IMG/VR virus record: IMGVR_UViG_3300035698_008372
Span: 1 to 64,000 of that record
Source: a virus
Length of the DNA: 64,000 nt
Direction: 5' to 3' (one strand)
Of this stretch, positions 1 through 38,025 are shown piece after piece. The translations under genes were made by a program, and so were the position numbers. The notes under the pieces were generated by a model, which was not told the origin of the DNA, made no database searches, and saw only the letters and a list, made by a program, of their open reading frames with translations. Position 1 is the stretch's first letter, and each line of letters starts with the position of its first letter.

Positions 1-3000
1 AAAAAATTGGACAAAATAAAATTATCAGCGATGAACCAAGCACGAGCTAAAAAAGGGAATGTCAGTGCTAAGCAAAAAGCGATGGCAACTAAATTTAAAT
101 TCCAAGAGGATATTACAGAATCCCCAGATGATGTTATGGGAAATGCGTTCTACTTGAGATTTCATCATAGTGACGCGCGTGCATTCGGTTGGCAAAGAAA
201 TGGTGATCATGAAGGTGATGCCCTAGTTGGAGAAGAAAATGGAAAAACTCATGGTAGCATAATAGATCATGATGGTCACAGGGTTGGGAGTAGGAGCAAT
301 TTGCATTATGCCGGAAGATTGTGGACTTCACAAAAGATTATATCATTTTGGGATTATCCAAAAGCATCCGATTTGCCTAAGATGATTAAACAACTCAATA
401 AAGAATTGAAACAATATAATGAAAAGATTGACATCAATACTTGGGGCGTCGACGTTGTTGCCGATTCAAAAGGCAAATGGGCCAAAAAAATTAAAGGTGA
501 TGTAAATTTCAAAAATGATCGCTGGAATATATGGGACACTACTACTGTTATTATTCCATTGAAAAAATTCGCTGGCAGTGAAAAACGGACTGCAGAGGAA
601 ATGGGCAAATCACATTTATTGTCTCCATTACTGAAAAAGATAAGTGCGGCCAAAAAAGAGAAATTAAAGGCTATGGATAGTGCCCGATCCAAAAAGGGGC
701 ACACTTCCGCCAAACAAAAAGCCATGATGACCAAATTCAAATTTAGTGAAGATATCACTGAATCTCCGGACAAAGTAGCAATCAGTGATAATGGCACGGT
801 GACTCACCGAGACAATGAAGCTTATTCGTTTGCTCCCGGTGGAAATGATTTAAAAACGATGTTTATTAGTGACAAAGGCAGTAGTCATTCGAGTATGATT
901 GTACAGTATCCTGGTGTGGGATTCAATTGGGAATATTCGGGTAGGGTATGGATAAAACATAAGATAATAGCATTTTGGTATGTTCCAAATAAAAATAAAT
1001 TGAAAACCCAATTAAAATATATAAACAAAGCGTTAAAAGAGGTGACAGGGGTTCAAATTAATGACGATTGGCTGATCGAACTCAAGGGGGATTATTTCAA
1101 AAAAAATCCCGATAGGTTAGAACTCGCTCCATATTTTGAAGAACATGGGTATGGATTATTGCCGATTAAATATTACACAGGACAACCACCAAAGCACGAT
1201 TCCAAAGCGTATCAACAACATCAAGCTTCACCGATGAAGAAAAAGGTTAATAAGGCCAAATTGTCGGCTATGGGAAACGCTCGTATGAAAAAGGGTGGAA
1301 CTACCGCCAAGCAGAAAGCTATGGCAACTAAATTCAAATTTTCAGAAGATAAATTAAATGAGGGCAGGGTATTTAAATCGGCTGGTATAGTACCATATAT
1401 CAAAAAGGGTGGTGAAATATACTATTTATTGTTGCATAGTGGCCGCTTGTGGGGATTCCCTAAAGGTATGCTAGATAAGGGTGAGGACTCTGTTGCTACC
1501 GCAAAAAGGGAAACCAAAGAGGAAACTGGAATATCCATATCCAAAATTGATAGTGGATGGAAGGCGGCTCAGAAATTTTTCGTCAATGTTGATTATTCGA
1601 CTGGTGAGAAATTGGACAAGCCTGCCCCCAAATTTGTTGTTTATTTCTTGGGAGAATCACCAACTGAAAAAGTTAAGTTGTCATTCGAACATACGAAATA
1701 TAAATGGGTGAAATATGAAGAAGGCCTTAAATTATTAAAGTTCGGCAAGGATATACTTAAAAAAGCAAACGAGCATTTGATTAAAAATGAGATACGTGAA
1801 AGTGTTAAATTGAATGATGAAATAATTGGAAGATTTATAGAAGAAACGGATATCGTGGCAATAATTAAAGAGGCTAGTATTAATTCCAGGGCCCCAACTG
1901 ATGATGGCCCTCCAATTTTTTACAAGACATTCGCTGAATACAAAAGGGTATCCAAGAAATGGTTGAATTCCATGTTCCAAGAAACAGGTTGGGAAGTCAT
2001 GGATTACATATTGTCTCATGGTGCGGAAGACCCTGAAAATGATTTTACAATGGAATACAGTACGGTTCCTGCTGTTGCTTACGGAAAAACTGGTGATGGT
2101 GAGGGTTACCCAGACCCAGTTGGCAGGTATAAAAAACACTTCGCTAAGATGAATCGGGAACTTGGTTGGGAAATTATCAAGTGGATGGGAATTGATGGTA
2201 AAAAAGTTACGGGTGTTGGTGCGAAAGCTCCAGTCGCTGCAGGTGCCAAGGATGGTACTGAAAATTCGGATAGAATGGAAAAGGATAAAGAAATGAATGA
2301 AAATTTATTTACACAGGAATGGTGAAAAGCTGAATTTCTTCGTGGAGAATTGTTACAAGAAGGAGGAGCCTACGGACACATGGCTCACCCATTTGATAAC
2401 AGAGATTTGACTTTCGGGGATTTGAAAAAAATTATAGAATTGGGCTTGGGTGGACAACTAAATCGTGAGGATAATGTCAGTGAAAAACTGGATGGCCAGA
2501 ACCTTATGTTATCATGGAAAAATGGTAAACTAATCGCTGCTAGAAATAAGGGTCATATCAAAAATGCTGGAAAAACGGCATTAGATACAAAGGGTATGAT
2601 TGCCAAATTTAAAGGTAGGGGTGAGATATACAAAGCATTCGTATATGCCATGAAAGACTTGGGCAAAGCCATTGGTCAATTGTCGGATAAACAAAGGGAC
2701 AAGGTGTTCGATGAGGGTAAAAACTTTATGAATCTTGAAATCATGTGACCTGGATCTGCTAATGTGGTGGATTATGACTTGGCACAGATTATATTCCATG
2801 GGGCATTGAAATATGATGCCGCTGGTACTCCAATAGGTGAGGTTCCCGGTAGTGGTAGGATATTGGCTGGAATGATTAAACAGGTCAATCAAAGTGTTCA
2901 AAAACATTATAAGATAGAACAACCCATATTCTTGGATATTCCAAAGCATCAAGATTTTGGCAAGTTAAAGAAGAAATTCTCGGCCAGATTGGATAAACTA

Positions 3001-3585
3001 AAGAGTGAATTTGCACTTGGCGACAAAGCCACATTGGCGATGTATCATCAAGAATGGTGGAAATCATTTATAGTCAAACAAGCGGCAAAAATGAAAGCTA
3101 AAAATATCGGTGGTGCATTAGAGGGGTTGATCAGGAGATGGGGATTTTTTGAGAAATCATATAGTGTGGCGATGATGAAAGCAGATTTAAAGAATAATCC
3201 AGAATTTTTAGAATGGGCGTTAGCATTTGATAAGAATGACCACGCGGCTCAGGTTAAGGAAAATATGCTTCCATTCGAAACATTGTTTTTTGAGGTCGGT
3301 GCAACTATACTGAAAAATGTAAGTGGATATCTAGCCGTAAATCCAGATAAATCCGTACAGAACATGAAGGATGAATTTGAAAAGGCTGTTAAGGAAATTG
3401 AAAAAAAGGGTGATCCTAAAAACTTGAAACGATTGCATACACAATTAAAAAGATTGGATGCTATCGGGGGGTTGGATGCGGTTGTACCAACTGAGGGCAT
3501 TGTATTTAAGTATAATGGGCAGATATACAAGTTCACGGGTTCATTCGCTAGCATAAATCAAATTATGGGTCTATTGACTTTCTAG
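1..3585 (+). CDS. Virion-associated polyprotein (5' partial): two related modules, Nudix hydrolase, unknown domain, ligase-like nucleotidyltransferase
   Basis: The frame is open from base 1, so the start lies upstream. In-frame TGA codons at 2323 and 2746 are read as Trp, fusing three fragments into about 1,194 residues. In order there are two homologous ~190-residue modules of unknown function (shared YAGRLW/YSGRVW and FW motifs), a Nudix domain near 1370-1750 whose box fits G-x5-E-x7-RE-x2-EE-x-G, an unknown domain near 1880-2290, and a C-terminal domain from about 2365. The last has the nucleotidyltransferase motif KLDG (in SEKLDGQNL) and a late EGIVFKYNG motif, as in DNA/RNA ligases. Modules are separated by (L/I)xE sites followed by G, A or S, fitting T4 gp21-type prohead protease cleavage. 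Domain calls are by motif. Processing and packaging in the capsid are inference. Confidence 0.8.
13..120 (+). repeat. Copy 1 of a ~36-residue linker repeat in the polyprotein
   Basis: This encodes a basic linker with KLSAMNQAR, SAKQKAMATKFKF and a terminal DITE. Two further copies lie at 655-762 and 1252-1362 of the same gene, each preceding a new domain. The copy ends at a predicted protease site, ITE before S. Confidence 0.85.
655..762 (+). repeat. Copy 2 of the polyprotein linker repeat
   Basis: It encodes KLKAMDSAR, SAKQKAMMTKFKF and DITE, closely matching the copy at 13-120. The nucleotide sequence has diverged at many third positions, so the repeat is maintained at protein level. It ends at ITE before S. 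Confidence 0.85.
1252..1362 (+). repeat. Copy 3 of the polyprotein linker repeat
   Basis: It encodes KLSAMGNAR, TAKQKAMATKFKF and KLNE, then runs directly into the Nudix domain. The end is LNE before G, a good fit to the (L/I)xE-G/A/S rule of T4 prohead proteases. Confidence 0.85.
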
Positions 3586-4894: not shown

Positions 4895-5167
4895 GTGAAA
4901 AAATCAGAAACCATAATGAAGAAATCAGAATTAAGACAGATTATACGAGAAGAAATCCAGAAATTGAATGAAGCCCGACCAATTAATATTGAAATTTGAT
5001 ATGACAATCCGAATGAAGAAAAATTTATTAAATCCAATGTTAAAAAATTTGGTGGTAAAATAATTAAACCATCTGGTGATCAAATTTCAACCATTTGGGA
5101 TGGGGATGGATATGAGTTTTCCAAATTGATGAAAAAGCATAAATTGAAAATTTATAGGTGGTATTAA
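4895..5167 (+). CDS. Leader-bearing putative internal capsid protein with doubled leader start
   Basis: A 90-residue protein. GTG 4895 is preferred because GGAG lies 9 bases upstream, while the internal ATG at 4916 has no ribosome binding site. The N-terminus reads MKKSETIMKKSELRQIIREE, a partial duplication of the leader's first residues. The leader ends QKLNE-A, a good protease site. TGA 4997 is read as Trp (NIEIWYDNP). Function unknown; head packaging is inferred. Confidence 0.7.
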
Positions 5168-5189: not shown

Positions 5190-5474
5190 ATGAAAAAATC
5201 AGAATTAAGACAAATTATTAGGGAAGAAATTCAGAAATTGAATGAGGCTGCACCAGTGCATGCCGATTTTGGTAAATATCTTGGTGATCTTACTGACAGT
5301 AAAACTATTTGGTTGTACCCAAAAAAGGGCGCATACGATTTCAAAAAAGAAATTGTGATACTAAAAAAGGCTTTTGGTAAAGCAAAAGTAACACCACATG
5401 AAATGGATTCAGTGGAGCTGGTATTTTCTAAGCCAATCCCAAGTCCAAAAGAGTGGGCGAACGCACTAAAATAA
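5190..5474 (+). CDS. Leader-bearing putative internal capsid protein
   Basis: A 94-residue protein starting MKKSELRQIIREEIQKLNE and then AAP, giving the clearest LNE-A cleavage site of the family. The remaining ~75 residues look like a compact alpha/beta domain (KTIWLYPKKG, SVELVFSKPIP). The next gene begins 12 bases downstream, so the two are probably co-transcribed from the late promoter at 4858. Function unknown. Confidence 0.7.
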   Translation: MKKSELRQIIREEIQKLNEAAPVHADFGKYLGDLTDSKTIWLYPKKGAYDFKKEIVILKKAFGKAKVTPHEMDSVELVFSKPIPSPKEWANALK

Positions 5475-6483: not shown

Positions 6484-8070
6484 ATGATGAATGAAGCACA
6501 AAAACTAAAAGAGGCGATGAAGAAAGAGTACATTAAGTGTGCTGTTGATCCCACGTACTTTATGAGAAAATACTGCATCATTCAGCATCCGCAACGTGGT
6601 AAGGTAAATTTTAACCTTTATGATTTTCAGGCCGATACTCTAGAAAAAATAGTAAGCAATAATTACACTGTAATTCTCAAAGCTAGACAACTGGGATTAT
6701 CCACATTAACTGCCGGATATGCCCTTTGACTAATGACATTCAATACGGATAAGGATATTTTGGTTATCGCTACGAAACAGGATAAGGCCAAAAACTTGGT
6801 AACAAAAGTAAGGGTTATGCATGCAAATTTACCAAATTGATTAAAATCCACCTGTACGGAGGATAACAGACTTTCAATGAGTTATAAGAATGGCTCAAGA
6901 ATTAAAGCAGATACATCATCCCCAGACGCTGCACGATCAGAATCACTATCATTATTGATTCTCGATGAAGCGGCATTCATCCCAAAAATTAACGATATAT
7001 GGACAGCAGCTCAACAGACATTAAGTACTGGTGGCCGCTGTATTGCATTGAGTACACCAAATGGTGCTACTGGATGGTTTCACGATATATGGGTTGGTGC
7101 GGAGAATAAGGTTAATTCATTTTTTCCAATATATCTTCACTGGACGGTACACCCAGAACGTGATCAAGTATGGCGTGACAAGCAATCTTTGGATTTGGGC
7201 CCAGAATTGGCCGCCCAGGAATGCGATTGTTCGTTTATCACTTCTGGAAAATCGGTAGTCCCCGGTCCAATTATTCAATGGTATTTGGATAATTTAAAGG
7301 AAGAACCCATCGCACGAGAAGGTCTTGACGGTAACTATTGAAAATGGAAATATCCTGAAATTGGAGCATCCTATGTGGTTTCGGCAGACGTGGCACGTGG
7401 CGATGGTAAGGATTATTCCGCATTTCATGTAATTAATATTGACACATTGGAACAAGTGGCTGAGTATCAGGGGAAAGTCGATACTAAAGCATTTGGAGAT
7501 TTATGTGTAAATGTGGCTACAGAATATAATGACGCACTGTTAATTATTGAAAATGCCAATATTGGTTGGGGTTCGATTCAACAGGTTGTTGACAGGGATT
7601 ATAAGAATTTATTTTACGCCACATCGGACTTGAAATATGTGGATGTAAAATCACAGATGACAAACAAATATTATAGAGACGATCGAAAAATGGTGGCAGG
7701 GTTTTCAACTACTAGCAGAACCAGACCAATGATCGTGGAAAAACTGGTGGAATATTTTAGAGATAAAACCGCAATAGTACATTCCAATAGACTAATAAAT
7801 GAGTTATTTTCATTTGTATATGGTCCTGCTTCGGCCGCACAGGCCGATTATGGTGCTAATGACGATTTAGTAATGAGTTTCGCGATAGCCCTATGGGTAC
7901 GTGATACTGCAATTCGTCTAAGAACTGAGGGAATGACTCAGCAGAAAAATTTAATGAAGCAAATGGTGGATTATCAACCAGTTTATAGCGAAAGTAGTAA
8001 TAAAAATGATTCATGGAATTGGGACGACTCACATGGGAATAATGTTGGGTTGGACTGGTTGCTGGATTAA
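6484..8070 (+). CDS. Terminase large subunit (gp17-like)
   Basis: A 528-residue ATPase-nuclease that packages DNA into the prohead through the portal. The ATPase domain has a Walker A variant KARQLGLST and Walker B LLILDEAAF. The C-terminal nuclease has the acidic motifs SADVARGDGKDYSAF and, late, YGANDDLVMSFAIALW. Three in-frame TGA codons (6727, 6838, 7339) fall where homologues have Trp: GYALWLMTF, LPNWLK and GNYWKWKYP. Without recoding the gene would be four fragments. Twelve or so other Trp codons are TGG. It lies directly upstream of the portal, as in T4-like phages. Confidence 0.97.
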
Positions 8071-8087: not shown

Positions 8088-11000
8088 ATGGCTGAAGGTA
8101 AATTAGCACGGAATTTAAAAAGATTATTTTCTGGAACCGTTATTGTTCGCAATATTGGTGGTAGAAAATTAAAGGTTGTGGACACGGACAATGTCCAATC
8201 TACTGTGAATAGAAATTTCATGGATAGATATACTAGATTGTACTCATCAATGGGTGGGTCAACTGGTCGTGCTATACAATTCTATCAAGCTGGGCAGAGA
8301 ATGGCCCTTTTCAAAGATTACGAACAAATGGATGCGGATGCTATTATCTCATCCGCACTAGACATTTATGCAGATGAATGTTTGGCAGGCGATACCATAA
8401 TTCCATTATTGGATGGTCAAAAATTGACTTTAAAAGAAATGTTTGATAATAATATGACCGATTTTTGGTTGTATGGTATTGACGATGGTGGAAATTTTAA
8501 ACCGTCTATGGGTAGATTTGTGGCATATAAGGGAAAATCCGATGTTTATAAAATAACATTGGAAGATGGTACGATATTGAAATCCACTGGAAATCATAGG
8601 TGATTGGATTCAAATAATAAATTGAAATATACTGAAAATTTTAAAGTCGGGGATGGAATTTATGCTCTTTCTACTAAAATAAGTGAACATAAAAATATGC
8701 CTGGATATGAAATGATAAAAAATGGAGAAAATTTCGAATTTGTTCATCGGATGGTTGCTAAAAATAATAAAATTTTATTGGAAGAACGAAAGCATAAAAC
8801 GGATAAGGCTGTAATACACCATAGTTCATTTGATAAGAGAAATAATTCTCCGGAACATTTAATTTGGCTTAATTCCAAAGAGCATTGGCAAATGCATGCT
8901 GATTTTAACAAACAATTGTGGTCAGATGATACCAAAACTCATGCATATAAAGACAAAATTAAGGAAGCACATGAGGCATATTGAACACCCGAACTTAAAC
9001 ATCAAGTAGCTATACGCCAGTCTAAATTTATGAAAGACTGAATGTCGAAAACTACTGACAATGAAAGAAAAGTTTTATTTGGGAATTATGGTGAAAAAAA
9101 TGGAATGTATGGCAACGGCGAATTGTTGTCTGGTAATAAAAATGGTAGATGAATATCATCAATGAATAGAATTAGTAAGTATGATTTAAATACACTAGTT
9201 GATTTATTAATGAAAGAGTATACTGGTGGTAAAAATAGCAGTGCTAGAAATATTTTATCTAATCACTACGATTTTAATCGTTCGGAATTTTTAAAATTTT
9301 CCAAAATGGTATGTGAATATTATGGAATATCAAATTTAAAATCATTACCACGTGAATATTATTTTGAGAAAAATAAACATTTATTATCTGACATGAGATT
9401 AAAAATATCCAAATTCAATAAAAATCCAAAGCGAAATTTTAATTTATTGTGCAATAATATAGGGACTACTAAAATAGAGTTTAATCATATATTAAATAAA
9501 GCTGGATATCATTCTTTTGGTGATTTTGCGGATTCTTCTAATCATAAAATTATATCTATTGAGAAATTGCCTGAATTGGAAGATGTATATGATATTATTG
9601 ATGTGGATGATACTAACATTTATGCGATTGAATCGGTCGATGGATCGAAAATATATACTCACAATTCTACAATGAAATCCGAATATGGTGATGTTATTGA
9701 GATTACCGCTGAAGATGAGGGTGTAAGGGAAGTATTACATAACTTGTATTATGACATTTTGAATGTTGAATTCAACTTGTGGCCATGAGTTAGAAATATG
9801 TGTAAGTATGGGGATTTCTTCCTGCATTTACAGATAGATGACAATTATGGTATATACAATGTTATTCCAATGTCGGCCTATGATGTGGTTAGACTTGAAG
9901 GATTAGACCCAGCAAAACCAAATGAGGTTAAATTTCAATTGGGCGAGGGTGAAACCAGACACATGGCTAAGGGTAATGATGAAACCGAGATGCTGGAAGA
10001 TTATGAGGTTGCACACTTTAGACTACATTCAGATTCAAACTATTTGCCATACGGTAAAAGTATGATTGAAGGTGGCCGTAAAACGTGGAAACAACTAACA
10101 CTAATGGAAGATGCCATGCTGATTCACAGAATCATGAGGGCCCCTGAAAAGAGAGTATTCAAATTGGATATTGGTAATATTGCTCCAAATGAGGTTGAAC
10201 CATTCATGAAATCGGTTATTTCCAAAATGAAAAAAACCCCAGTTATGGATGAACAGACTGGTGAATATAATTTAAGATACAACATGCAGAATCTCACTGA
10301 GGACTTTTTCCTTCCAGTGCGTGGTTCTGATAGTGGAACTGAGATTGACACATTATCTGGGTTGTCTTATGAGTCCACCGATGATATAGAATATTTGAAG
10401 AACAAAATGATGGCGGCTTTGAAAGTACCTAGGGCATTCTTGGGATACGATGAGGCTCTAAACAGTAAATCAACATTGGCAGCAGAAGATGTGAGATTTG
10501 CAAAAACAATCGAGCGAATCCAAAAGGTGATAGTTGACGTTTTGATGAAAATTGGTGTGGTTCACCTTTATACTCAAGGGTATAGGGATGAGAGAATGCT
10601 TAATTTTGATCTTAGCTTAACTAACTCGTCTATCATGTTTGAAGAGGAACGGTTGGAATTATTGAACAACAAAATTTCAGCGGCTAGTTCACTTCTACAG
10701 GACGATTTGGCACCTACAGATTGGATATATAATAATATCTTCAAATTCGGAAAAGCCGAACAAGAACAAATCAGACTGGAACTATTAAAAGACAAAAAAC
10801 GCAAGTTCCGTTATCAACAGATTGAAGATGAGGGAAATGATCCATTGAAATCTGGTGAAGCTGTTGGTACACAAGGTGCCATGATGGCCGCCGGCGGGGA
10901 AGAGGGCGGCGGACCCCCACATCCAGTTCCAGGTGGCGCACAGGAAGAAAATTATGGTGATTATGGAGAAGATAATGAAGCTCCTGCAGGTGGCCATCCA

Positions 11001-11264
11001 GGTGGTGGCCGACCTAAAGAAGGGCCTAAGTATGGTAAGGATAGTTCCGCTACCGGCCGTGATCCACTAGGAAAACATGACATGAAAAAGGCCAGTAGCA
11101 ATAGTCCTAAATACGGAAAAACTTTATCACTCTCACATTACGCGTCTTTAAAGACAAGATTGGGTGAAAAGTTCGTAGAAAAGAATCAAAAAATATTAAA
11201 AGAATCTGATGATATAGAAAAAGAATATAAAGATGATATTTCTAGCTCAGAGGACGCTGAATAA
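8088..11264 (+). CDS. Portal protein (gp20-like), interrupted by an intein
   Basis: The precursor is 1,058 residues and the spliced portal about 629. The N-extein ends ALDIYADE and the C-extein starts STMKSEYGD, joining into the conserved ALDIYADES portal segment. Later portal motifs are CKYGDFFLHLQ, the DDIEYLKNKMMAALKVPRAFL region, and a Gly/Pro-rich tail near 10880-11050. Five TGA codons (8601, 8982, 9039, 9150, 9786) are read as Trp; the last, in LWPWVRNMCKYGD, lies in the extein itself. The portal forms the dodecameric DNA gateway at the head vertex and nucleates prohead assembly. RBS and spacing follow the terminase gene closely. Confidence 0.95.
8379..9665 (+). mobile_element. Intein with HNH-like endonuclease inside the portal gene
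   Basis: A 429-residue protein-splicing element. Block A begins at Cys (CLAGDTIIPLLDG). Block B is STGNHRW, whose Trp is encoded by TGA 8601. Block F/G is VYDIIDVDDTNIYAIES with a final IYTHN, followed by Ser as the first C-extein residue. The middle holds an HNH-like stretch (AVIHHSSFDKRNNSPEHLIW) consistent with a homing endonuclease. Four TGA-Trp codons lie within it, so it can only be made where UGA is read through. The insertion point is a highly conserved portal site, typical for inteins. Confidence 0.93.
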
Positions 11265-12991: not shown

Positions 12992-13597
12992 ATGATAACT
13001 AGACAGCTAATTGTGGATTATTTGTTATTTGATGTTTCACCGCAACAAATTACGGAATCTATTAAACAGAATGGCAAGGTAATTGTACAGGGTGTATTAC
13101 AACGTGCAAATTCCGAAAATCAAAATGGTAGGGTTTACCCACGCAAGATTTTAATGAGAGAAGCGGAAAAATATTCCGAAAATTTCATTAAACAGAAAAG
13201 AGCGATGGGTGAATTGGATCACCCCGATAGTTCAGTAGTAAACCTACAGAACGTATCTCATAATATTGTGGAAACACATTGGGAAGGTGACAATTTAATT
13301 GGAACCATCGAAGTATTGGGTACTCCTTCTGGAAATATTCTAAAGGAATTATTTAAAGCTGGCATAAAATTGGGTATTTCATCCAGAGGTTTAGGTTCGG
13401 TTCAACAATCTGAAGCTGCTGGTGGTGCACAAGAAGTCCAAGATGATTTCGAATTGATTGCATTCGATTTTGTTTCAAATCCGAGTACACATGGTGCATT
13501 TATGTACCCAGTGAATGAATCGGTTGATCCATCTGCCAGAACGTGTGGAAAATGGTGTAAAGTAGAATCAATCATTAATGATATTATTAGAGGATAA
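12992..13597 (+). CDS. Prohead maturation protease (gp21-like)
   Basis: A 201-residue serine protease of the T4 gp21 type, which cuts scaffold, internal proteins and capsid protein during head maturation. Conserved segments are the RANSENQNGRVYPRKI region, the catalytic His context GELDHPDSS, and the Ser context LGISSRGLGS, followed by DFVSNPSTHGAFM. Its position just upstream of scaffold and capsid genes agrees with T4. Known T4 specificity is (L/I)xE before A, G or S, which many neighbouring proteins here carry. Confidence 0.95.
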   Translation: MITRQLIVDYLLFDVSPQQITESIKQNGKVIVQGVLQRANSENQNGRVYPRKILMREAEKYSENFIKQKRAMGELDHPDSSVVNLQNVSHNIVETHWEGDNLIGTIEVLGTPSGNILKELFKAGIKLGISSRGLGSVQQSEAAGGAQEVQDDFELIAFDFVSNPSTHGAFMYPVNESVDPSARTCGKWCKVESIINDIIRG

Positions 13598-13600
13598 ATA

Positions 13601-13825
13601 ATGAAAAAATCTGAATTACGTCAAATCATTAAAGAAGAGCTTTTGAAAGAAGAAGAAGGTGACCTCGGCCGTGACATTGATAGGGTTGTCCAGATGGCAA
13701 AGGATAAATTTAGCGATTGGGAATCCGATAAAGAAATCAACAAATTGACAATGAAAAATTTACAAAGGCTTGCCGATTTCTTCGGCAAAGACGCTAAAAA
13801 ACTATTGGCTAAGGAGGGCAAATAA
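13601..13825 (+). CDS. Leader-bearing putative internal capsid protein
   Basis: A 74-residue protein starting MKKSELRQIIKEELLKEEEGD, only four bases after the protease stop. The rest is charged and helical. Candidate cut sites lie in LLKEEE-G. It is the smallest member of the leader family next to the protease. Function unknown. Confidence 0.65.
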   Translation: MKKSELRQIIKEELLKEEEGDLGRDIDRVVQMAKDKFSDWESDKEINKLTMKNLQRLADFFGKDAKKLLAKEGK

Positions 13826-18432: not shown

Positions 18433-18960
18433 ATGGAGAAATCAGAACTGCGTCAATTAATCCGTGAAGAAATCAAGCGGGTCATGATAAAAGAAGATTA
18501 CGCCGATGATCTAGCCAAAAAGTTGGTTAAGTCGAAAAAGGTTAAATCTGGCATGAATGAAAAGGATAAACTATCCGCCGCTGGTGCTCAAATGAAAAAA
18601 GATTTGGGTGACAAGCGGGCTAAAAATTGGTGGACTACATATCCCGATTTTGCAGCCGATTTCCTAAGTGCCGTGTCCAGCAATCTATCAGAATCGAGCG
18701 TTAATGAAAGTGAATATAAACTTGATGGTAAATTAATTAAGCGATTGAAAATGCCCATTTTACAAACATGAGACTATATTGGTAGTGATGCGATGGAATT
18801 GGGTGTTAGTGATAATGGAGATGCCATAGAATTGACAATTGATGCTTCAAGATTGGCCCAACAAGATAAGGAAGCCGATCAAATAATTCAGGACATTGTG
18901 GCTAAATTCGGGTATAAGAAAGTATTAAAATTTTTAAGCAAAAATATACGAGCATATTAA
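18433..18960 (+). CDS. Leader-bearing putative internal capsid protein
   Basis: A 175-residue protein starting MEKSELRQLIREEIKRVM, a leader variant. TGA 18769 is read as Trp (LQTWDYIGSD), and the extension adds about 60 residues to TAA 18958. Around residues 90-105, SNLSESSVNESE contains further candidate cut sites. GGAG lies 8 bases upstream of the start. Function unknown. Confidence 0.7.
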
Positions 18961-18961
18961 T

Positions 18962-19738
18962 ATGAAAAAATCAGAATTAAGACAAATCATCAGAGAAGAA
19001 ATTCAAGTCATAATGGAACGTGATGTGGCTTATGATTTGACAAAAATCATTAGAAGCCGACCAGACGCATCCACAAAGAAAAAATTGGCAAAAATATGAT
19101 CGTCAATGGATAAGAAATCCACAGAATATGGTCATGTTGAAAAGGCTTTATCCGCTTGGGGCGATCCCTATAGTGGTGGTGAGACTTGGCAATCACATGT
19201 TGAAAAAGCAATAGGTGCATTGAATGAAGATAAAAAATCCGACTTTCTGGCACAGGCATTTGCCAAACAGAATAAAGAGGGCAAACTGGTAGTAGTTCAG
19301 GGTGGTAAGTTCGGTAAAAAGAATTTCAAAAAGGGTCAAAAATTAAACATATTAGGCAGAACATCAAAAGCCTTGCATCCATCACAACAGGGTCTGGTAG
19401 TACAGAATCCTAGTGGTAGGGGTGAATTTGTAGTATATGACCACTTCCTCAAAGACGAATCTATATTCAAAATTGTAAAAGAGAAAATGAATATGGGTGT
19501 AGTCAGGGCCAAACGGGCAACTGAATTGGATGAAGGGGTTGGAGTTACACTTAGTAACAATAGTGCCGATAGAAGAGATGCATTGGCCATCCTAAAAGAC
19601 GAATTTAAGGGTGTAAAATATAAGATTAAGGGTAGTGATTATATAGTGTTCAAAAACGATAAGGACGCTGAAAGATTTTTCGATCTGTGCCAACAAGATT
19701 ATACCGAATTGGCCGGCGCGAACAAAGAGAAATATTAA
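18962..19738 (+). CDS. Leader-bearing putative internal capsid protein
   Basis: A 258-residue protein starting MKKSELRQIIREEIQVIME, one base after the previous stop. TGA 19097 is read as Trp (KKLAKIWSSMDKK). The middle is a basic beta-rich domain (GKLVVVQGGKFGKKNFKKG), and LDEG near residue 185 is a possible site. The C-terminal 75 residues form a small alpha/beta unit. It overlaps the next leader gene by one base. Function unknown. Confidence 0.7.
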
Positions 19739-20493
19739 TGAAAAAATCAGAACTACGTCAAATGATCAGGGAAGAAATAGAGCTTACTATCAATGAGGGG
19801 GCATTTGCCAAGTTTAAGGACATGATAGAAAAGGCCGTTGAAATGCACACCATAGAAAAGTATATCAAAGCTAATGCGGTCAAAATGTTCAAAGGTATCC
19901 CAAATGGTAGTGGATTTGAAGAGCTCAAAAAGGCCATTTTATTTTATGCAAAAGCGTACGAAAATGGTATGAGTGGACGGACCAAATCCAATCGGTTCTA
20001 TGGAATTCAACAGGTATTCCAAAAAAATCCAAAGGTTGAAAAATGATTCTTCCCAGGACTTAGGCGCGGTAAAATAACCCGTGAATATTTAAGACAATTT
20101 GTGGTAGCTTTTGCAAAAGATTACAAAGGGGTAACCGAATCAATCAAATTGAATGAATCAAATGAGGTTGTCAATTCCATGAAACCCGATGTTGATGAAT
20201 TGGTAAAATTATTGTCTGCAAAATACAAGCGAGCAGACGTGGGACTTGTCAGGATTAAAGAATGGGCGCCAACCCAAACCGCATTTGAAATAAAAATTTA
20301 TGATAAAGAATTGTTCAATCATCTAACTGTATGGGTGTGGGGTAAGGAACAGGACTCTGCCAGAATATCAATAGAGGTGGCAGGAAGCAACGAACACAGC
20401 TTCAAACGGGGTGTTAGACCGACAGTGAAACAAATGTACAAAGCGATATTAAAGTCATATAGGGGACATAGAAACCCTCCAATTGTAAAATAA
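19738..20493 (+). CDS. Leader-bearing putative internal capsid protein
   Basis: A 251-residue protein starting MKKSELRQMIREEI, with INE-G as a clear site at about residue 20. TGA 20044 is read as Trp (KVEKWFFPGLRRG), joining two halves. The C-terminal half has LKLNE-like repeats of the site (IKLNESNEV) and a basic beta domain (FEIKIYDKELFNHLTVW). Function unknown; head packaging is inferred. Confidence 0.7.
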
Positions 20494-20708: not shown

Positions 20709-21869
20709 ATGGATGATCTTTTAAAGAGTGCTATTGCAGACGCAAAAGCAGTAAGGGAAACCGCACTAGCAAACGCACGCATAGCTCTAGAAGAGGCATT
20801 TCAACCACGTATTCAATCAATGTTAGCCAAGAAAATTCAGGCTGAGGTTGATGACTTTGAGGACGGAGATGAATTCGAAGCTGATGAAGAAGAAGATTTT
20901 GATAACGAGGAATCGTTTGATGATGAAGATGAAGTCGCAGTAGACGCCGAAGAAGGCGAAGAAGAAATCGAAGACATTGAAGTAAGTGATGATTTTGAAG
21001 ACGACGAGGAAGAATTCGACGACGAAGAAGCACCAGAACTTGAAGATGATGAAATGGAAGAATCAGAAGATTTCGACGCTGACGATGAGTTTGGCGATTC
21101 CGATCCTGAAGAGGACGAGGACGAGCTAGATTTGGAAGCGGTTATTCGCGAACTTGAATCTGAAATAGACGATGAATACGAAGATGAAGAAGAAATGGAC
21201 ACGGACTACGAGGACGAGGAAGAAGACCTTGAGGAAAATGACGTATCTTCAGATATCGGTAAATCTGACAACAAACAACCTGGTAAAGCAAATCAAACTT
21301 CAGGTATCGGTACAGCTGGTAAAGCTAAACTGAAAGAGGAAGATGAATTTGAGGATGAGGAAGAAGAAGAATATGAGGACGATATGGACGAAGATATTGA
21401 CTTACAGGAACTTCTAAATCAACTTACTGAGGATGATGATGAAGATGAAGATGACGCCGAGGAACAGTTGGAATCCTTACAAGCTGAGCTTACCGAGCAT
21501 CGCGAAGTGGTGAAATACTTACGTGACAAATTAAATGAAGTTAACCTGCTTAACGCAAAATTACTTTATACAAACAAACTGTTCCGTTCCTTTGAACTGG
21601 ACAATGGTAAGAAATTTAAAGTGGTCGAGACTTTCGACAGGGCAAAGAATATTCGTGAGGTCAAGTTGGTTTATTCAACTTTGGCAGAATCATTTGGCAG
21701 TCGTGTCACTAAGAAGTCAAAACCAAAACTCGAGGAAAATAAACGTCAGGGCAAAAGACGCAGTTCAAGCTCCAAGCCTATCCGTTCTACCAAACCTAAG
21801 ACAAATAACATCTTGTCAGAAGGTCAGGAAGTCCGTGAGCGTTTTCAAAAACTCGCAAACATTAAATAG
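20709..21869 (+). CDS. Prohead scaffold/core protein (gp22-like)
   Basis: A 386-residue protein that forms the inner scaffold on which the capsid assembles and is later degraded by gp21. The N-terminus (MDDLLKSAIADAKAVRETAL, ALEEAFQPRIQSML) is the conserved gp22 segment. Residues about 50-245 are extremely Asp/Glu-rich. A coiled coil near 255-285 (EEQLESLQAELTEHREVVK) and a basic C-terminus follow. It sits directly before the capsid gene, as in T4. The acidic stretch is low complexity, so alignments there mean little. Confidence 0.92.
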   Translation: MDDLLKSAIADAKAVRETALANARIALEEAFQPRIQSMLAKKIQAEVDDFEDGDEFEADEEEDFDNEESFDDEDEVAVDAEEGEEEIEDIEVSDDFEDDEEEFDDEEAPELEDDEMEESEDFDADDEFGDSDPEEDEDELDLEAVIRELESEIDDEYEDEEEMDTDYEDEEEDLEENDVSSDIGKSDNKQPGKANQTSGIGTAGKAKLKEEDEFEDEEEEEYEDDMDEDIDLQELLNQLTEDDDEDEDDAEEQLESLQAELTEHREVVKYLRDKLNEVNLLNAKLLYTNKLFRSFELDNGKKFKVVETFDRAKNIREVKLVYSTLAESFGSRVTKKSKPKLEENKRQGKRRSSSSKPIRSTKPKTNNILSEGQEVRERFQKLANIK

Positions 21870-21879
21870 GAGAATTTAA

Positions 21880-23496
21880 ATGAGTAAAAGCCTACAAACA
21901 ATCGAAAAACTAATGGGTGGCTATTCTCCAGTTCGTAAGAGATTAGAGGAGTCTAAGGCTCTTGTAGCAAAGTGGGAACCCACTGGACTACTTGAAGGTC
22001 TTAGTACAGAACATGATGTAAACAATATGGCAGTGTTGCTTGAAAACCAAGCACGTCAGCTTATTGATGAATCATCTAAAACTGGAACCGCCTCCAACTC
22101 TGAAGAATGGAGCGGCGTAGCCCTTCCACTAGTTCGTAGAATATTTGGTGAATTAGCTGCACAGGAATTCGTTTCTGTACAACCTATGAACCTGCCTTCA
22201 GGACTTATTTTCTATCTAGATTTTAAGTATTCTACAGCACAACCAGGATTCGATTCAGGGTCCGACATTTATGGTAACACAAGTTCATCTGGCGATGCAA
22301 CTGGTGGTCTTTACGGCGCAGGTCGTTTTGGATATACCTCAAATGATGTATCAGTAGCATCAACTTCCTTCGTAACCGCATCCGTGGTTTGGGGTGATGT
22401 TGATTTCGAAGCAGACTTGTCTGCATCAGTCGCTGCTGGAACACTTCTTAAAATTACCATTCCAAAGGCACAGGCAGCTGCTGCTGATTGGGACGCTGTA
22501 CGTTCATTCGTAATTAGTGGTTCTGGTACTTCAGAAGTAACAACACTGTATCCCGCTTACAGTAAAATAAGTGGTACAAACGCTATCTTTATTATTGATC
22601 CCGCGCTCGCACCTTCTGGTAGTGGAACTCAATTCACAATCAAATATAGCAAACAACCTACTGACATCACTCGCGGTGATTTCGAACAGACCAGTTTCAC
22701 GACTCCTGCTCCTAATTCAGCTGATGATATCGGTATCCCTGAGATCGACATTCAGATGCGTTCGATTCCGATCGTCGCAAAGACCAGAAAGTTAAAAGCT
22801 ATCTGGACACCTGAACTAGCTCAGGATTTAAACGCATATCATAGCGTTGATGCAGAAGCAGAATTAACTGCTATGTTGTCTGAATATGTAACAATGGAAA
22901 TTGACTTGGAAATTCTTGACATGTTGCGTGCAAACGCTTCTGCTAGGACTGAGTACTGGTCAGCAAAGATTGCTAACGAATATAACGCTTCCACAGGTTT
23001 ATTCGAAGAGACATCTGCTAACGCTTCTGCTTATGTTAAGGGAACGTGGTATCAGACTTTGGGTAATAAAATCCAAAGAGTTTCTGCAGCAATTCACCAA
23101 AAAACCCTCCGTGGTGGTGCAAACTTCCTAGTTGTTTCTCCGGAAACTGCTACGATTATCGAAAGTATTCCGGGTTATGCCGCTGATACTACCGGTGATG
23201 CATCTATCACTTCATTCGCTATGGGTGTTCAGAAGGTTGGTATGTTGAATAACAGGTTCACTGTTTACAAGAACCCTTACATGCACGAAAACGTCATTCT
23301 TGTCGGTTTCCGTGGAAGTAATTTCTTGGAAACTGGTGCTGTTTATGCTCCATACGTTCCACTGATCATGACACCACTAGTGTATGATCCAGTAAATTTC
23401 ACCCCGCGTAAGGGTGTCATGACGCGTTATGCGAAGAAAATGGTCCGGCCCGAATTTTATGGCACGATTGTTGTCGCTGACACGAATTTGGTCTAG
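21880..23496 (+). CDS. Major capsid protein (gp23-like)
   Basis: A 538-residue HK97-fold T4-type capsid protein. Recognisable segments are the N-terminal SKSLQTIEKLMGGYSPV, the conserved VSVQPMNLPSGLIFYLD region, EIDIQMRSIPIVAKTRKLKA and TPLVYDPVNFTPRKGVMTRY. A probable gp21 cut lies at LLE-G near residue 46, consistent with removal of the N-terminal delta peptide. All Trp codons are TGG despite the length. Codon choice appears more optimised than in neighbours (my impression), as expected for the most abundant product. A strong terminator follows at 23532. Confidence 0.97.
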   Translation: MSKSLQTIEKLMGGYSPVRKRLEESKALVAKWEPTGLLEGLSTEHDVNNMAVLLENQARQLIDESSKTGTASNSEEWSGVALPLVRRIFGELAAQEFVSVQPMNLPSGLIFYLDFKYSTAQPGFDSGSDIYGNTSSSGDATGGLYGAGRFGYTSNDVSVASTSFVTASVVWGDVDFEADLSASVAAGTLLKITIPKAQAAAADWDAVRSFVISGSGTSEVTTLYPAYSKISGTNAIFIIDPALAPSGSGTQFTIKYSKQPTDITRGDFEQTSFTTPAPNSADDIGIPEIDIQMRSIPIVAKTRKLKAIWTPELAQDLNAYHSVDAEAELTAMLSEYVTMEIDLEILDMLRANASARTEYWSAKIANEYNASTGLFEETSANASAYVKGTWYQTLGNKIQRVSAAIHQKTLRGGANFLVVSPETATIIESIPGYAADTTGDASITSFAMGVQKVGMLNNRFTVYKNPYMHENVILVGFRGSNFLETGAVYAPYVPLIMTPLVYDPVNFTPRKGVMTRYAKKMVRPEFYGTIVVADTNLV

Positions 23497-36822: not shown

Positions 36823-37308
36823 ATGACAGGTAGATTTATGACAGGTCGGGATTTGAAACTCTTTGATCGGATCAATAAAGAATTAATAGGTGATTTAGGC
36901 CAAGCAAAACCCGGTTGGATAAATCAGACTGCCATATTATATAAGGTATCCGTAAGCGATACCAAAGTGGATATGTACGGAGAAAGCTCGGATGGTAAAG
37001 TATGGAAATCGGGGGTAGAATTTGCATGTCTCATTGACGCCGAAGATTTCGATTGGAGTAATGAAGCATACGGTACTGATGAGGGGCAAAATGTGTCATT
37101 CTATCTAATGAGGGATGCACTGGTACAGGCCAGCATTGTACCACAACAGGGCGATATATTTGAATGGAATTTCGGATATTTTGAGATAAACGGGATCAAT
37201 GAAAATCAACTTATATATGGGGATGTAGAAAACAATTGGTCGGCTGGATATTCTTGTCATAGGATAAGAAAATCCAATGTGAACATCGAAAGAGTTAGGA
37301 GCAATTAA
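36823..37308 (+). CDS. Neck protein (gp14-like)
   Basis: A 161-residue protein (MTGRFMTGRDLKLFDRINKE, ILYKVSVSDTKVDMYGES). The motifs and position match gp14-type neck proteins, although it is shorter than T4 gp14 (256 residues). A second in-frame ATG at 36838 is possible. It overlaps the next leader gene by one base. Confidence 0.7.
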   Translation: MTGRFMTGRDLKLFDRINKELIGDLGQAKPGWINQTAILYKVSVSDTKVDMYGESSDGKVWKSGVEFACLIDAEDFDWSNEAYGTDEGQNVSFYLMRDALVQASIVPQQGDIFEWNFGYFEINGINENQLIYGDVENNWSAGYSCHRIRKSNVNIERVRSN

Positions 37309-37793
37309 TGAAAAAATCAGAATTAAGACAGATGATAAGAGAAGAAATTCAGAAATTAACTGAAGGGCAAGTAAAAATTTGGAAATCTCCTCAAGGTGTG
37401 CTAAGACGAAATAAAGATTGGTCATACTCTGTTTTCAAATCTATGGATGATATGGACGCAAATAAAGCGGTTTTGTCAAATGTTAGCATGGACGACTTGG
37501 CTTCATGGGGAGCTAAAAACAAGAAACAATTTAAGGCTATGGGATTGAGTGGGTTCACCGAATCTATAACCGAAGAAGTCAAAGAACCACCATTGATAAC
37601 CAAAATTCGGTGGATTGTGGACAATAAGCAATTCAAAAAAATTAACGGACAAGTGGTTGATGCTTTCACCGCACAACACGTAATTCAGGTGTACGATGCG
37701 CTTGGTGATAAAAACAAAGAGCAATTTGGCAAGATGAAATTAGAACCTATGGTTAACCTTACATGGAAACTATTTAAAAAGGTAGGAAAATAG
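37308..37793 (+). CDS. Leader-bearing putative internal capsid protein
   Basis: A 161-residue protein starting MKKSELRQMIREEIQKLTE and then G, an LTE-G site. A repeated short domain (NKDWSYSVFKSMDDMD, ESITEEVKEP) and a helical C-terminus follow. It sits among neck genes rather than the prohead cluster, which suggests the leader family is not tied to one locus. Function unknown. Confidence 0.7.
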   Translation: MKKSELRQMIREEIQKLTEGQVKIWKSPQGVLRRNKDWSYSVFKSMDDMDANKAVLSNVSMDDLASWGAKNKKQFKAMGLSGFTESITEEVKEPPLITKIRWIVDNKQFKKINGQVVDAFTAQHVIQVYDALGDKNKEQFGKMKLEPMVNLTWKLFKKVGK

Positions 37794-37794
37794 T

Positions 37795-38025
37795 ATGAAA
37801 AAATCAGAATTAAGACAAATAATTAGAGAAGAAATTCAGAAATTGGATGAAAAGGCTTTTGACAAACCCAAATATATTCGACACATCAATGTGCCCCCTA
37901 ATAATATCAATGTGATATTATACAATGATAGAATCCAAATCGTCGGCGGCCACACTGGTTATGAAGAATATATTATGATTGACGAATTGCCCGATCTTAT
38001 AAAAGCACTTAAAAAAATAAAATAG
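37795..38025 (+). CDS. Leader-bearing putative internal capsid protein
   Basis: A 76-residue protein starting MKKSELRQIIREEIQKLDE. The rest is a small beta-rich domain (NVILYNDRIQIVGGHTGYEE). The preceding leader gene ends two bases upstream, so the two look like a tandem pair. Function unknown. Confidence 0.7.
   Translation: MKKSELRQIIREEIQKLDEKAFDKPKYIRHINVPPNNINVILYNDRIQIVGGHTGYEEYIMIDELPDLIKALKKIK

Follow-up and report, generated by a model that had tools for sequence, protein, structure and literature searches.

A predicted head-cargo polyprotein with putative prohead-protease sites between its domains in a phage that reads TGA as tryptophan

We propose that bases 1-3585 of the window, by which we mean the whole 64 kb stretch analyzed here, encode a head-cargo polyprotein of a T4-type phage in which TGA is read as tryptophan, and that this polyprotein is processed by a protease of the T4 gp21 kind. 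The window opens at base 1 of a linear virus record of 140,003 bases and covers the first 64 kb of it. We consider this the best explanation overall and a probable one, in the absence of any virion data.

In the pathway that we envisage, a short N-terminal capsid-targeting tag would carry the whole chain into the prohead core, where the phage's own gp21-type protease (12992-13597) would cut after (L/I)xE at the domain boundaries. The products would be SPD modules that keep basic C-terminal tails, a Nudix hydrolase, a DDGP protein and an RNA-ligase-like nucleotidyltransferase. These released proteins would be retained with the DNA and probably ejected together with it and, to judge from the domains found across relatives, would serve in the infected cell for early RNA-end repair and for nucleotide and NAD upkeep. 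The steps of this proposal are not equally secure. The domains, the sites, the specificity of the motif and the linked protease are established from the sequence itself. That the (L/I)xE sites are genuine cleavage sites we hold to be very probable, with cleavage as such being inferred. Packaging into the head is likewise inferred, since no virion proteomics exist for any member, and we expect it with good confidence. Injection into the host is an inference as well, and so is the purpose in RNA repair and NAD metabolism, for which we would put the chances a little short of even.

Results

Reading frame and genetic code

The polyprotein frame (1-3585; + strand, as for all window features below) comprises 1194 codons with TGA as Trp and ends at a TAG stop (3583-3585); its 5' end is missing. 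Under the standard code the same bases hold three ORFs, and a single frame is obtained only if TGA is Trp. The earlier note had treated the region as one polyprotein frame and was silent on the three standard-code ORFs. Two in-frame TGA codons, at 2323-2325 (W775) and 2746-2748 (W916, in FMNLEIMW, where the closest relatives have Trp), both align with Trp in standard-code relatives (DWW and FMNLEIMW), and on these grounds the standard code was ruled out for this ORF. TGA occurs in coding sequences throughout the record, at about 5-20% of Trp codons per 10 kb bin, and the stops are TAA and TAG. A Trp-UCA tRNA was not found in the record by ARAGORN, which detected only two tRNA-Gly genes. One relative (L101) is likewise a TGA = Trp phage.

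Because the record starts at window base 1, the 5' part of the polyprotein and its own N-terminal tag are not in it. An identical contig (L011) lengthens the polyprotein by 26 residues, which form the end of one more module followed by SPLLKK; a scan for a further 5' extension, made with the first bases of that contig, returned only the contig itself. The two assemblies break about 80 bases apart, as is expected at repeats.

Domains, linkers and predicted cut sites

The chain runs from linker 1 through module A, linker 2, module B, linker 3, the Nudix domain, linker 4, the DDGP domain and linker 5 to the ligase-like domain. The three repeated basic linkers that had been described before three of these domains are borne out: linkers 1 (1-120), 2 (640-762) and 3 (1237-1362), of about 40 residues each, have net charges of +7, +6 and +10 and share the motif ..KxKL.AM..AR.KKG..(S/T)AKQKAM.TKFKF(S/Q)ED... 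Their predicted cuts are ITE|S after base 120, ITE|S after base 762 and LNE|G after base 1362. Linker 4 (1801-1872), with a model pLDDT under 50, ends at a predicted IKE|A cut after base 1872 and linker 5 (2221-2361) at a predicted LQE|G cut after base 2361, and all five (L/I)xE sites listed in the earlier note are found where it had placed them. Two further matches to the motif had not been listed. One, IRE|S after base 1800, closes the Nudix domain; the other, LGE|S after base 1656 (residue 552), lies within the Nudix fold, where it is probably buried and not cut, so a match to the motif is by itself no proof of a cut.

SPD modules A (121-639), of unknown fold, and B (763-1236) are homologous, as had been claimed, in an alignment of 10 modules. 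The module has no sequence match in Pfam, PHROG or PDB, and its model (pLDDT 81, for module A) has no fold match in PDB or BFVD; relatives of A and B are confined to few phages. Catalytic activity of either module finds no support from any analysis, the fold matching nothing known. The Nudix hydrolase (1363-1800, ending at IRE|S) is as the earlier note had named it, with a match to Pfam PF00293 at E=6e-13 (49.4 bits against a cut-off of 21.1) and to 1kt9 at E=3e-11, and its closest solved relatives are Ap4A hydrolases. The DDGP domain (1873-2220) is of unknown function and conserved in relatives; its model, of low pLDDT, was too poor for an identity to be assigned through structure.

The C-terminal domain (2362-3582), which starts GGAYGHM, carries the motifs of a KxDG covalent nucleotidyltransferase (EKLDGQN, ARNK, NLEIM, EGIVFKY and YKFTG). 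The identification first made from the KxDG motif holds up in that motifs I, III, IV and V, with an invariant K829-x-D-G together with EGxVF and YKxT, are retained in six distant members. The Pfam RNA_ligase match is weak (E=0.05, in one member). A domain model of fair confidence has PDB matches that are nearly all ligases, the best being 8ucg, 2vug, T4 Rnl1 and Rnl2, with E-values of 0.02 at best and low TM-scores, and in a profile comparison with T4 Rnl1 and Rnl2, motif I aligns with that of Rnl2 at a weak score. An RNA ligase is thus likely and not proven. No peptidase family matched the window polyprotein. NMNAT was found neither in the window chain nor in the whole record, and NadV was not found in the record; NMNAT and Nudix occur in one chain in a relative (L012), not in the window polyprotein.

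Specificity of the sites in relatives

A scan of IMG/VR with the ligase alignment recovered at least 581 stretches with the same C-terminal ligase, of which the best 80 were examined, and the polyprotein design appears to be common to hundreds of uncultured, mostly marine phages. Within those best 80, ORFs reach 1663 residues, and the 46 non-redundant relatives from which the motif statistics were taken are polyproteins with swapped domains, among them NMNAT, Nudix, P-loop kinase, CCA-adding enzyme and exonuclease. The Pfam families seen in relatives, in varying combinations, are CTP_transf_like (NMNAT-type), AAA_33/Zeta-type kinase, PolyA_pol (CCA-adding), RNase_T exonuclease and Zn_protease.

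A short motif could arise by chance in Lys/Glu-rich linkers, and the window alone offers only modest, suggestive evidence to the contrary: its polyprotein has seven matches against 2.3 expected in shuffles (P=0.009), and for either of the sites after 1872 and 2361, a linker of the same composition would produce a match with a probability of about 20%. It is the comparison among relatives that decides. In the 46 non-redundant relatives, the interdomain density of [LI]xE[AGS] is 6.24 per 1000 residues, compared with 0.30 inside domains. When each of the 20 residues in turn was set at position X of [LI].X[AGS], Glu gave 100 interdomain matches against 28.7 in shuffled interdomain sequence (z=13), with nine inside 29,760 domain residues, and no other P1 residue showed a like excess; the runner-up, Met (z=5.7), owes its excess to the internal starts described below. 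At P3 a strong excess was found for L (z=12) and I (z=9) only. The cleavage motif of T4 gp21 is L/I-X-E (PMC9026906), and these preferences are that motif, recovered without assuming it. The z-scores and p-values are optimistic in that relatives share ancestry and their independence is overstated. On the ligase tree, however, P2 at the boundary before the ligase takes seven different residues with at least 12 changes, and P3 switches between L and I only (Glu at P1 was a selection criterion for the tree rows and not a result); a varying P2 beside a P3 that remains L or I partly answers the concern over relatedness and argues against chance propagated by descent. We regard chance as scarcely credible.

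The sites are also well placed: 26 of 31 relatives have one in the 30 residues leading up to the DDGP domain, and 26 of 43 have one in the corresponding stretch ahead of the ligase. An uncut protein must nonetheless be weighed, namely a multidomain effector of the "polyvalent protein" type that is packaged and injected as one chain, the LxE matches in its flexible linkers going unused. Phages are known to encode polyvalent proteins of 2 to 15 domains, some of which are packaged or transferred unprocessed (PMC5512222), the ligase is fused in frame in many relatives, and the sites before NMNAT are weak, being mostly (L/V/I)xE with Q, E or D, and not G, A or S, as the next residue (strict matches in 5 of 24). 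Such an effector would not account for the marked preference for E at P1 with L/I at P3, which is limited to boundaries, for a P2 that varies next to a constrained P3, or for the repeated replacement of the site by an internal start at the same residue. We therefore judge the uncut chain to be unlikely and prefer a polyprotein cut at its domain boundaries. The boundary site is kept in a relative whose order is ligase followed by NMNAT (L135; LIAE|GGAAGHL). A cultured relative, Microcystis phage Mel-JY01 (protein WWT39297.1, about 640 residues), has IIAE in front of GGLGGHMNHPF, and in LR756500 the ligase is a stand-alone gene with its own tag, MKFLKSYEEFLNENLILE|GGSYGHL.

Protease, targeting tags and the head-gene region

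The window encodes a prohead (head maturation) protease of the T4 gp21 kind (12992-13597; phrog_207, E=3e-54) with ITE|S at its residue 22. A phrog_207 protein was found in 21 of the 22 tested records that have the ligase or the module, and the 14 control genomes gave none. Complete relatives begin with N-terminal tags such as MNKLVEEIIKPILE|A, MKTKLTEWLVKPLVE|G, MEKFIAELIEPLLVE|S and MSKTLTEWLVKPLLE|G, which resemble those of T4 gp24 (MAKINELLRE|S) and gp22 (MLKEQLIAE|A) in the T4 record; a further example from a relative is MNKLVEEIIKPILEA.

In the head region of the window the motif is five times denser at protein N-termini than in interiors (13.8 against 2.8 per 1000), and eight proteins there share the tag M(K/E)KSELRQ(I/L/M)I(R/K)EE(I/L). 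Tagged proteins include two small ones with MKKSELRQIIREEIQKLNE|A (4895-5167 and 5190-5474), another with MKKSELRQIIKEELLKEEEG (13601-13825), and two at 37308-37793 (MKKSELRQMIREEIQKLTE|G) and 37795-38025 (MKKSELRQIIREEIQKLDE|K). Three consecutive tagged proteins also have internal sites, MEKSELRQLIREEIKRVMIKED with LSE|S and VNE|S (18433-18960), MKKSELRQIIREEIQVIMERD with LDE|G (18962-19738) and MKKSELRQMIREEIELTINE|G with LNE|S (19738-20493), which indicates that the design may extend beyond one gene. A very acidic 386-residue protein with several LxE sites (20709-21869), without a family match and scaffold-like by composition and position, lies between the protease and capsid genes and adjoins the latter. 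The major capsid protein, of the gp23 kind (21880-23496; phrog_138, E=7e-71), has LEE|S and LLE|G near its N-terminus. The terminase large subunit (6484-8070; phrog_2, E=4e-48), which again needs TGA = Trp, precedes the portal protein (8088-11264; phrog_213, E=3e-56), in which an in-frame HNH-containing insert (phrog_21964, E=2e-9) is probably an intein. The order of polyprotein gene, terminase and portal is found both in the window and in a relative (L134).

Predicted protease site or internal start at the ligase boundary

Immediately ahead of the ligase, LxE is found in 23 of the 43 non-redundant relatives and Met takes its place in 19, usually as KELLLM-GGAYGHM. Upstream of that ATG, a Shine-Dalgarno-like motif was present in 39 of 41 Met-type sequences against 6 of 37 others before redundancy was removed, and AAGGAG-N9-ATG stands at the ligase boundary in 17 of the 19 non-redundant Met-type relatives. 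This predicted internal ribosome-binding site before GGAYGHM was seen in L020-L099 (for instance, L074 codons 1249-1255). The Lys-Glu pair at the boundary is coded AAG GAG in all 17 non-redundant cases, compared with 1 of the 322 Lys-Glu pairs at other positions of these proteins, in which no other AAGGAG-N-ATG was found, in or out of frame. Along the ligase tree, the boundary switches back and forth between LxE and Met 9 to 11 times, and at least four of these switches are forced by well-supported branches.

A methionine before glycine is normally removed by methionine aminopeptidase, and hence both routes would give the same GGAYGHM N-terminus. On this sequence evidence, we read the protease site and the internal start as alternative routes that lead to one and the same free ligase. 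The earlier note had held that homologues without sites would refute it, and such homologues exist at one boundary, where about 44% of relatives have no protease site directly before the ligase; as an internal start occupies the same residue in nearly all of these, they do not overturn the polyprotein reading and rather agree with it. For the ligase of the window itself, an in-frame TTG at 2350 (window 2350-2361), near LQE|G, follows closely on AGGGGAG and could provide a weak internal start (MQE-GGAYGHM) besides the protease site. Among head genes, an essential internal start has a precedent in T4 gp21 itself, at Met45 (PMC9026906; gene 21 of T4, our L122).

An internal start implies that some ligase may be made without the targeting tag, and part of it may act in the cytoplasm, outside the head. 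It could be argued further that the whole is a cytoplasmic multi-enzyme protein, never packaged and separated where needed by internal starts or host proteases, and the frequency of internal starts before the ligase speaks for this. We think it quite improbable, given a gene just upstream of terminase and portal, N-termini that resemble T4 targeting tags, a protease linked in nearly every record tested and sites that fit a prohead protease, and we retain packaging and cutting in the head as the preferred reading.

An independent architecture with six modules

Six tandem SPD modules make up a 1582-residue chain in another phage (L124/L125), which starts MQKLFE|SPDG. Its linkers (SPLLKK..VPTGFGSKHPKAEERFKTKMQAPFE..YPRLNE|SPD) are unlike those of the window except for SPLLKK, and LxE closes all six, with a new domain directly after. 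The phrog_207 protease was not found in this record, a 66 kb fragment. Judged by sequence alone, it would be an independent architecture with different linkers and the same placement of sites. The claim that the polyprotein is cut between its domains by a prohead protease is in this way supported by the specificity, position and conservation of the motif, by the linked protease, by the tags and by the six-module family. As a separate observation, L101:367-1452 encodes an SPD module, a similar basic linker, LVE|G and then a HEIEH domain that, by eye, resembles a zinc peptidase.

Discussion

The proposed pathway has its closest counterpart in the internal proteins IPI-IPIII and Alt of T4, with which it has in common a short N-terminal tag ending in LxE or IxE (here seen in relatives), the L/I-X-E motif cut by gp21 in T4, and T4-type protease and capsid genes (PMC9026906). 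The T4 cargo, in contrast, consists of single proteins with a tag each, whereas here one chain has repeated internal sites. Head proteins of phiKZ and SPN3US have propeptides cut several times after S/A-X-E or A-X-E (PMC9026906, PMC10052503), and hence also illustrate one protein cut by a prohead protease at several Glu sites; those pieces, however, are discarded propeptides, and here they are folded domains.

We would also make the distinction from polyvalent proteins (Iyer et al., 2017, PMC5512222), which are, like the chain described here, large phage proteins with many unrelated effector domains. They are thought to enter the host with the DNA, and their authors compare them to the polyproteins of RNA viruses and propose processing by embedded zincin metallopeptidases or assemblin-like peptidases (PMC5512222). 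An embedded processing peptidase is a common theme among them, although not universal, and none was matched in the window polyprotein. Here a gp21-type protease would instead act in trans on repeated LxE sites, and the domain set differs in being led by an RNA-ligase-like enzyme and NMNAT. The predicted activities are similar to those of T4 tRNA repair (PseT kinase, RnlA/RnlB) and of phage NAD salvage (NadM, NadV), but the T4 repair enzymes are separate proteins and not head cargo. The open-access literature searched, which leaves out subscription papers, yielded no multi-enzyme polyprotein cut by gp21, nor the combination of in-trans processing by a prohead protease at repeated sites with interchange between site and internal start.

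Taken as a whole, this could be a strategy like that of RNA viruses, with one tag, interchangeable enzymes, cutting inside the head, switching between site and internal start, and a kit for RNA repair and NAD/nucleotide metabolism that acts before phage expression; we consider it evenly balanced whether this full picture is right. If true, very common uncultured, mostly marine phages deliver a set of enzymes with their DNA by means of a single tag, to be released on maturation, which would account for the loading of many cargo proteins into large heads at a fixed ratio. LxE would be a simple rule for reading virion cargo from sequence. RNA repair and NAD upkeep would be available in the first minute of infection, when defences that cleave tRNA and deplete NAD act.

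Two gene arrays deserve separate mention. L005:4698-7035 (88698-91035 of the record) holds three tandem paralogous genes of about 255 residues with a common KYHYSH/YHYTH..P...Q..LGVF, which we take to be reminiscent of Mom-type DNA-modification acyltransferases. L003:3962-7059 (133961-137058 of the record) holds an array of small paralogues of about 80-90 residues with a common (T/A)xYxG(S/T/N)YW.
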